NCBI GenBank assembly: GCA_028532915.1 | Contig: JAQQAI010000026.1 | Span: 1 to 64,000 of the forward strand | DNA from: Sphaerochaetaceae bacterium | Lineage (GTDB): Bacteria; Spirochaetota; Spirochaetia; Sphaerochaetales; Sphaerochaetaceae | Length of the DNA stretch: 64,000 nucleotides | Direction of reading: 5' to 3' | Shown here: piece after piece, positions 25,571 through 28,233 of the stretch | Numbering within the stretch: the stretch's first letter is position 1 | Layout: each line of letters opens with the position of its first letter | The notes under the pieces: model-generated | Databases searched by the model: none | What the model was told of the DNA's origin: nothing | The model's input: the letters and a program-made list of their open reading frames with translations, nothing else | Made by a program: the position numbers and the translations under genes

Positions 25571-25665
25571 GTGAATGAATCGTTTCACATGCTGACTTTG
25601 GAGATGATATAAAATGGGTAGCGAACTTTCGCTATGATGAATGAGAACATTGCTATGTGTTCTCA
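25571..25665 (+). promoter_or_regulatory. three consecutive hairpins and a possible promoter between rpoC and rpsL
   Basis: GTGAA...TTCAC (about 25571-25588), TAGCGAA-CT-TTCGCTA (25619-25634) and TGAGAACA...TGTTCTCA (25642-25665) follow one another. A TTCACA (25584-25589) and TATAAA (25608-25613) 18 bases apart could be a promoter for rpsL-rpsG. No T-run marks a terminator. Function is inferred only from position. Confidence 0.35.
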
Positions 25666-25694
25666 CTAAAACGAGAAAGGGAGTGTATCGAAAG

Positions 25695-26069
25695 ATGCCT
25701 ACAATTAACCAATTAATACGTAAAGGACGCAGGACGAACGTCAATAAGACCAAGTCTCCGGCATTGCAGGGGTGTCCTCAAAAACGCGGGGTCTGTACGA
25801 GAGTTATGACAGTGACCCCCAAAAAGCCGAACTCGGCATTGAGAAAAGTCGCAAGAGTCCGTCTTTCAAACGGAATCGAAGTAACCGCATATATCCCTGG
25901 TATCGGACATAACCTGCAGGAGCACAGTGTTGTACTCATGCGCGGCGGAAGAGTCAAAGACCTTCCAGGTGTTCGTTATCACATTGTTCGTGGTGCAAAA
26001 GATACCCTTGGTGTGAGTGACCGAAAGAGATCCCGTTCCAAGTATGGTGCTAAAAAGCCGAAGGCATAA
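25695..26069 (+). CDS. rpsL: 30S ribosomal protein S12
   Basis: The 124-residue S12 of the decoding centre begins [12 protein letters not shown] and contains [20 protein letters not shown] with Lys at the classical streptomycin position, and [16 protein letters not shown] with the second one. ATG 25695 was chosen because S12 proteins start here and AAAGGGAG lies upstream; an 18-residue in-frame extension has no support. rpsG follows after 15 bases. Confidence 0.97.
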
Positions 26070-26555
<486 letters not shown>

Positions 26556-26572
26556 GATTTTCCATATTTTGA

Positions 26573-26600
26573 AAAGCGTCGTTCGTCGGCGCTTTTTTTT
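26573..26600 (+). terminator. intrinsic terminator after rpsG
   Basis: AAAGCGTCG (26573-26581) and CGGCGCTTT (26587-26595) form a 9-bp stem with one G-T pair and a TTCGT loop, ending in eight T (26593-26600). This closes the transcript that began upstream. Confidence 0.9.
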
Positions 26601-26668
26601 CTGGTTGCCCGATTCGTGTCCTGCTTCCGGCGGTATCTCATTTATTTGGATTTATCGTAATATATGTG

Positions 26669-26697
26669 TTGACACAAATTAGCAAACCCTCTATATT
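26669..26697 (+). promoter_or_regulatory. strong promoter of tuf
   Basis: TTGACA (26669-26674) and TATATT (26692-26697) are 17 bases apart, close to sigma-70 consensus. Predicted start is near 26704, giving a leader of about 288 nt before tuf. Confidence 0.8.
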
Positions 26698-26703
26698 AGC
26701 AAA

Positions 26704-26991
26704 GGTGTCCTTTAGGGAGCAGTATGCTCATTAAGGACATTTGTAGAGCCAAACCGATTGTCCGGACTTAATGTACTGGGATGATAAGGTGGTTCCAGAT
26801 AGCAGAATTTTTGAAATCTGTACTATGTCGTTGGCTGAAACATGTTTTTCGACCTCTGGATCCCTCTTTTCGTCTAGTGTAAAAAAATCCCGAATCAGTT
26901 TGTCTCTCTAAATCGAAAGGTAAAGGCGTCTTGCCTTTATGGAGCACGATATATTTTTTTCTGTGACAAAGATTGTCACAAGGAGGAACTG
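26704..26991 (+). promoter_or_regulatory. long structured tuf leader
   Basis: This stretch has no gene. Reading it by eye: (1) TGTCCTT/AAGGACA (26706-26712, 26733-26739) enclosing GAGCA/TGCTC; (2) a closing stem AGCCAA/TTGGCT (26747-26752, 26831-26836) enclosing three arms, at 26754-26765, 26776-26798 and 26799-26826; (3) TAAAGGC/GCCTTTA (26921-26927, 26933-26939); (4) TGTGACA/TGTCACA (26962-26968, 26974-26980), which abuts the Shine-Dalgarno AGGAGG. The branched part looks cloverleaf-like. It matches no riboswitch class I recognise. Confidence 0.55.
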
Positions 26992-28182
<1,191 letters not shown>

Positions 28183-28192
28183 CGACTAGTTG

Positions 28193-28233
28193 CTTGCTCG
28201 CATCGCATAAGGTGCGGGCAAGAATTGTTTTTT
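28193..28233 (+). terminator. terminator/attenuator between tuf and rpsJ
   Basis: Bases 28193-28203 and 28212-28222 form an 11-bp stem with wobble pairs, followed by AATTG and six T (28228-28233). The T-run runs straight into TTGGAGGAA, the rpsJ ribosome-binding site. It would end or reduce transcription from tuf into the S10 cluster. No separate promoter for rpsJ was seen, so partial read-through is likely. Confidence 0.65.

Follow-up and report, generated by a model that had tools for sequence, protein, structure and literature searches.

The messenger RNA of tuf, the gene for elongation factor EF-Tu, begins with a genuine structured RNA leader, strongly conserved between the window (a 64,000-nucleotide stretch of DNA from a Sphaerochaetaceae bacterium) and its relatives. 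Computational analysis showed that the leader is conserved, that its helices covary, that its core element is specific to tuf, and that two of its folds compete. Our main reading, to which we give a probability of roughly 55%, is that the leader is a cis-regulatory RNA controlling tuf through two mutually exclusive folds. Most of the detailed knowledge of how bacteria control the level of EF-Tu, which is among the most abundant bacterial proteins, comes from enterobacteria; if our reading is correct, tuf in the spirochaete class, including Treponema, would be under the control of a new RNA family. The conserved core of this RNA would allow a precise binding test, and the position of the RNA before tuf and the S10 operon would make it a test case for the coordination of EF-Tu and ribosome supply.

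Structure, conservation and distribution of the tuf leader

The gene order in the window is rpsL-rpsG, a terminator-like hairpin, a near-consensus promoter and then tuf; all features described here lie on the forward strand. The terminator-like hairpin after rpsG (26571-26597; an 11-bp stem followed by a T run) ends the upstream unit, and the tuf unit is separate. The promoter (26669-26697; TTGACA-17-TATATT, 11 of 12 matches) has TTGACA and TATA boxes that are also present in aligned relatives. Transcription is predicted to start near 26704, which puts ~288 nt of leader before the ATG of tuf (26992), the length that a sequence-only reading of this DNA had proposed. The tuf gene itself (26992-28182; EF-Tu, 396 aa), which was also found in the relatives, is preceded by the Shine-Dalgarno sequence GGAGG (26982-26986), and rpsJ is the next gene after tuf in essentially all genomes that have both on one contig. 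We note that there is no fusA between rpsG and tuf in the str region (25641-28182), and that the sequence fetched immediately upstream of tuf showed no rpsG in some genera of the family.

Folding of positions 26704-26995 (292 nt) gave -86.7 kcal/mol versus -71.7 kcal/mol for shuffled sequences (z = -3.1), beating 200 of 200 dinucleotide shuffles; thermodynamic folding of RNAs of ~300 nt is error-prone and the energies are approximate. The transcript's first hairpin, P0 (26705-26740), is present in the minimum-energy fold, in agreement with the sequence-only reading, and comparable hairpins of varying length can be seen by eye in relatives. That reading had also described a branched domain ending at 26836, and such a domain exists and is conserved but extends to about 26911. 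The details given for it fared less well: the closing stem near 26747/26836 and the arms at 26754-26765 and 26776-26798 are absent from both the minimum-energy fold and the covarying consensus, and a third arm at 26799-26826 corresponds only roughly to the predicted hairpin P4 (26802-26821), a variable element of the minimum-energy fold in a region of uncertain alignment. Because the software minimum differs from the three-arm fold, that fold falls. The tRNA-like cloverleaf is not supported: its arms were misplaced, neither ARAGORN nor the Rfam model for tRNA gave a match in the leader, and the covarying structure differs from a cloverleaf with acceptor, D, anticodon and T arms. Best supported is an imperfect hairpin of considerable length, in competition with a long P3/P1 fold. 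The broader idea of a conserved, covarying structure upstream of tuf in relatives survived.

A DNA search with the leader plus tuf as query matched 122 of 139 family genomes, some of them in tuf only. From the family we extracted 108 leaders, and 62 non-redundant members were aligned with MAFFT without structure information (alignment A1). Blocks that are near-invariant in A1 are GAGCCAAACC, AAGGUGGUUCCAG, AUGUCG, and GACCUCUGG; a locus titled Sphaerochaeta sp. has the same leader element. Covariation in A1 (n = 62) supports four helices: P1 pairs 26746-26754 with 26898-26906 (88.5% paired), P2 pairs 26757-26763 with 26779-26785, P3 pairs 26787-26799 with its 3' strand UCUGGAUCCCUCU at 26855-26867 (84.5% paired), and P5, a GUCG...CGAC hairpin at 26827-26853, pairs 26827-26835 with 26845-26853 (91.5% paired, both sides changed in 6 of 8 pairs). 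In the minimum-energy fold of the window, P3 is longer (26772-26799/26855-26881). P2 has an alternative extension, in which 26746-26755 pairs with 26788-26795 (GAGCC with GGUUC and ACC with GGU), and because these two strands are common to both structures, the extended P2 hairpin and the P1/P3 fold are mutually exclusive. The four helices together had 87.8% of cells paired, as opposed to 36–52% in slid controls with the partners moved by 1-3 columns (31–52% across both structures), and a covariation score of 0.307 that 0 of 500 column shuffles reached; the extended hairpin had 92.9% of cells paired and a score of 0.335 (0 of 500 shuffles), and both scores exceeded those of all slid controls by a factor of 2.4 or more, with the structures having been picked on the same alignment later used for scoring and the shuffle counts being no probabilities because the sequences are related.

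The extended P2 hairpin turned out to be class-wide, with the consensus GAGCC-AA-ACC-N-AUYRYC...GRYGRU-NA-GGU-GGUUC (26746-26795 in the window). In the window, its 5' strand (GAGCC-AA-ACC-G-AUUGUCC, 26746-26763), which is also the 5' strand of P1, pairs with its 3' strand (GGAUGAU-AA-GGU-GGUUC, 26779-26795), and 89–93% of cells in the aligned sequences are paired, with compensatory changes. Two class-wide alignments gave 92.0% (A2) and 89.4% (A3) paired cells. Double changes in these alignments turn GAGCC/GGUUC into AAGCC/GGUUU, GAACC/GGUUC, or GAGCC/GGCUC, and UUCC/GGAA also occurs; the outer stem shows compensatory changes, one pair being GC in 21, AU in 7, and CG in 3 cases. The invariance of CCAAACC and GGTGG in the two class-wide alignments is partly by construction because they were hand-anchored on those letters.

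We searched genomes with two covariance models, R1 for the structure seen in the family and the smaller R2 for the hairpin only. R1 found a single true copy in the genome of the window, where the R2 match had an E-value of 2.3e-12. R1 had matches in 68 of 297 and R2 in 78 of 248 class genomes, with one real match per genome for both models, and the hairpin was found in about 20 families of the class Spirochaetia, including loci titled Treponema. Among the out-of-family matches that were fetched, 20 of 20 R1 matches lay directly upstream of tuf, as did 30 of 34 further ones (22 of 24 and 8 of 10) at a distance of 180-336 nt, which makes 50 of 54 in all, with the hairpin generally about 180-340 nt before tuf. 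The four weak model matches away from tuf (L298, L299, L302, and L310) were judged to be chance. The rest of the phylum beyond the class gave one weak stray match and nothing convincing, and about 65 non-spirochaete tuf loci gave no significant match to the hairpin. No R1 or R2 match was found among the listed genomes of family f19 (1.0-1.5 Mb), in which the element may be lost. Rfam 15 had no relevant match at gathering or permissive thresholds for the window leader or its relatives. A literature search, with subscription journals and supplements outside its reach, found no description of this leader, and spirochaetes, uL4, uS7, and uS10 do not appear under those names in the main text of a survey that reported new ribosomal leaders (PMC7247131).

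Predicted competition between two folds

In computed folding of growing transcripts, the class-wide hairpin had a median pairing probability of 0.996 when transcripts ended just past it and of 0.03 in the whole leader (61 sequences). With the downstream part dinucleotide-shuffled, the probability was 0.52–0.60, and the native value was lower in 50 of 62 cases. Because the native downstream part displaces the hairpin far more than shuffled sequence does, the downstream sequence competes specifically, and the leader looks bistable; a role as a bistable regulatory leader is, in our view, probable. In the window, the hairpin is predicted to form in transcripts ending at 26800-26860. These calculations show the hairpin as the predicted stable structure while the first ~100-150 nt alone are transcribed. 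The full-length fold of the window is state A (-86.7 kcal/mol), and enforcing the hairpin (state B) costs 6.5 kcal/mol.

Two downstream strands compete with the hairpin. In P3, AAGGUGGUUCCAG pairs with CUGGAUCCUYCUU, and AGGUGGUUCC of the 3' strand of the hairpin doubles as part of the 5' strand of P3 (26787-26799), making P3 a direct rival of the hairpin. The second competitor, present in most of the family, is an anti-strand, AAUCAGUUUGUCUC (26893-26906), which complements the 5' strand of the hairpin and makes P1. Its complementarity to the 5' strand had a mean z of -2.3 versus shuffled sequences in the family of the window and of about -2 in families f17, f25, and f3, whose members also have the anti-strand; no such strand was detected in f22. 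It also fits the 5' strand of its own species better than those of other species (0 of 300 permutations). Only in ~20% of the family does P1 prevail when the whole leader is folded and, therefore, P3 is the more general competitor. An upstream GGUUUG that by eye could be a third partner in other families was not significant (mean z -1.3 to 0.8).

In state B of the window, the anti-strand is predicted to be freed to pair with GAACUGAU, the start site. This pairing was better than in shuffled sequences (mean z -1.5) and was not specific to the own species (20 of 300 permutations). Comparison thus does not clearly support that the anti-strand closes the ribosome-binding site in state B, and we offer this step as a hypothesis only.

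Candidate regulators and known systems

The sequence-only reading had raised the idea that EF-Tu binds its own leader; because the leader is structured, branched, conserved, and tuf-specific, autoregulation is now a serious hypothesis. Protein binding, EF-Tu as the bound protein, and the direction of control are what we infer in the following scheme of autogenous control, which we favour. The early hairpin would be the putative protein-binding site. With the regulator in excess, the protein would hold the early hairpin, the anti-strand would be freed and the start site would stay closed; otherwise, the RNA would rearrange and tuf would be translated. In a broader and somewhat more speculative version, a class-wide spirochaete switch might measure free EF-Tu, or via the UGG free tRNA ends, either of which would hold the early hairpin against the built-in displacing strand, and might in this way set the EF-Tu level independently of the downstream ribosomal genes.

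EF-Tu is the most likely ligand, if only tentatively so, and is preferred as regulator because the element goes with tuf, occurs in a single copy, and is insulated together with tuf from the genes of the S10 operon. A terminator-like hairpin in the gap before rpsJ (28193-28222 in the window) provides this insulation. In most class members, the gap contains a strong hairpin, with stem sequences that are unrelated between members, usually followed by a T run that merges into the rpsJ Shine-Dalgarno sequence (TTTTTTGGAGG). Because this conserved hairpin cuts tuf off from the S10 genes, translational control would act mainly on tuf, and the hairpin may set the ratio of EF-Tu to ribosomal proteins. 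It argues against the main, though less likely, alternative that a protein from the S10 operon (uL4, uS10, uL3, or another) binds the early hairpin and represses the tuf-S10 transcript. Because rpsJ always follows tuf, gene context fits such a protein and cannot separate it from EF-Tu. Like ribosomal-protein leaders (r-leaders), the spirochaete element shows conservation and covariation, lies in the 5' UTR of a gene that serves translation, and has the single copy per genome typical of that group. Mimicry of the rRNA binding site is common, not universal, among r-leaders, and a sequence-only profile scan of 16S and 23S rRNA gave no consistent resemblance; likewise, no Rfam r-leader matched even at permissive E-values. 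The E. coli S10 leader, which uL4 controls, shares with the spirochaete leader its length, structure, and autogenous logic as well as a transcript with rpsJ-rplC-rplD. It differs in that the first gene in the spirochaetes is tuf, that a terminator-like hairpin precedes rpsJ, and that no sequence relation was detected; moreover, the E. coli leader uses an attenuator, and none was seen in the spirochaete leader. Control by uL4 of the S10 operon and by uS7 of the str operon in E. coli offers precedents (PMC10931766). The uS7-controlled str operon and the rpsL-leaders even occupy the same rpsL-rpsG-tuf neighbourhood, but their sites are in or before rpsL-rpsG, whereas the spirochaete element lies downstream of rpsG and has its own promoter (PMC10931766, PMC2965389).

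It is rather unlikely that the leader is a ligand-free, constitutive structure that shields the ribosome-binding site and keeps a very strongly expressed mRNA stable: P0 and the hairpins P6 and P7 described below could aid stability, and P7 beside the Shine-Dalgarno sequence is conserved, but the near-invariance of CCAAACC and AGGUGG, in paired and unpaired bases alike, across ~20 families and the selected competition of two folds exceed what stability needs. Control of tufB in Salmonella and E. coli works through translation speed and Rho. If the spirochaete leader worked similarly, ribosome speed would sense EF-Tu and pick the mRNA fold. We regard this as improbable, even though tufB, the closest functional analogue, is likewise an EF-Tu gene with alternative mRNA folds near the start, and the two-fold logic resembles the open and closed states that Salmonella tufB mRNA adopts close to its start codon (Brandis, Bergman and Hughes 2016, as cited in PMC10882980). 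In tufB, the elements occupy the region of the start codon and the first ~65 codons, whereas the spirochaete leader has ~200 untranslated nt and its own conserved hairpin. A reading frame overlapping the switch, the tufB-type trait, has no counterpart in a conserved upstream ORF: the conserved AUGUCG contains AUG in 43 of 62 sequences, with frames of 3-54 codons and no shared peptide.

Two further explanations are very unlikely. The highly conserved core and the displaced early fold would fit a small-molecule riboswitch sensing, for example, a nucleotide such as GTP or ppGpp, which would work without a protein. Most metabolite riboswitches, however, serve several genes of one pathway, and this element is found upstream of tuf only, in one copy per genome. 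Just as remote is a tRNA-sensing leader, suggested by the similarity of AGGUGGU to the UGGN bulge with which a T-box binds the NCCA end of tRNA. The leader shares with a T-box a conserved string, AGGUGG(U), and folds that exclude one another, and its conserved UGG(U) has helices on both sides in P3. In the best-supported hairpin, however, the UGG bases are paired with CC and ACC, and it is only in the alternative P3 that an internal loop takes up part of them. No stem I or specifier arm was seen, and the T-box model (RF00230) had no match at E-values up to 10 on the window leader and none on its relatives; the likeness is limited to that of AAGGUGG to the T-box core.

Hairpins next to the tuf start site

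Two further hairpins lie downstream of the branched domain. P6 (UAAAGGC...GCCUUUA, 26920-26940) is 97–100% paired, and its covariation is scarce because the sequence is almost invariant. P7 (26961-26981), directly 5' of the Shine-Dalgarno sequence, is 97–100% paired in 110 sequences and has compensatory changes, one pair being A-U in 77 versus G-C in 31 sequences and another U-A, C-G, or G-C. The Shine-Dalgarno sequence has a predicted unpaired probability of 0.01–0.04 in the full leader. We note that both strands of P6 are near-invariant in the family beyond what pairing needs; in family f22, a hairpin of unrelated sequence (ACGGC...GCCGU) seems to replace P6. Three small-genome family members (L165, L178, and L182 of genus g22) keep the class-wide hairpin, and in them P6 and P7 are degraded or absent. 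In the window (26961-26986), the U-rich 5' flank of P7 pairs with the Shine-Dalgarno sequence through U-A and U-G pairs, an arrangement reminiscent of RNA thermometers.
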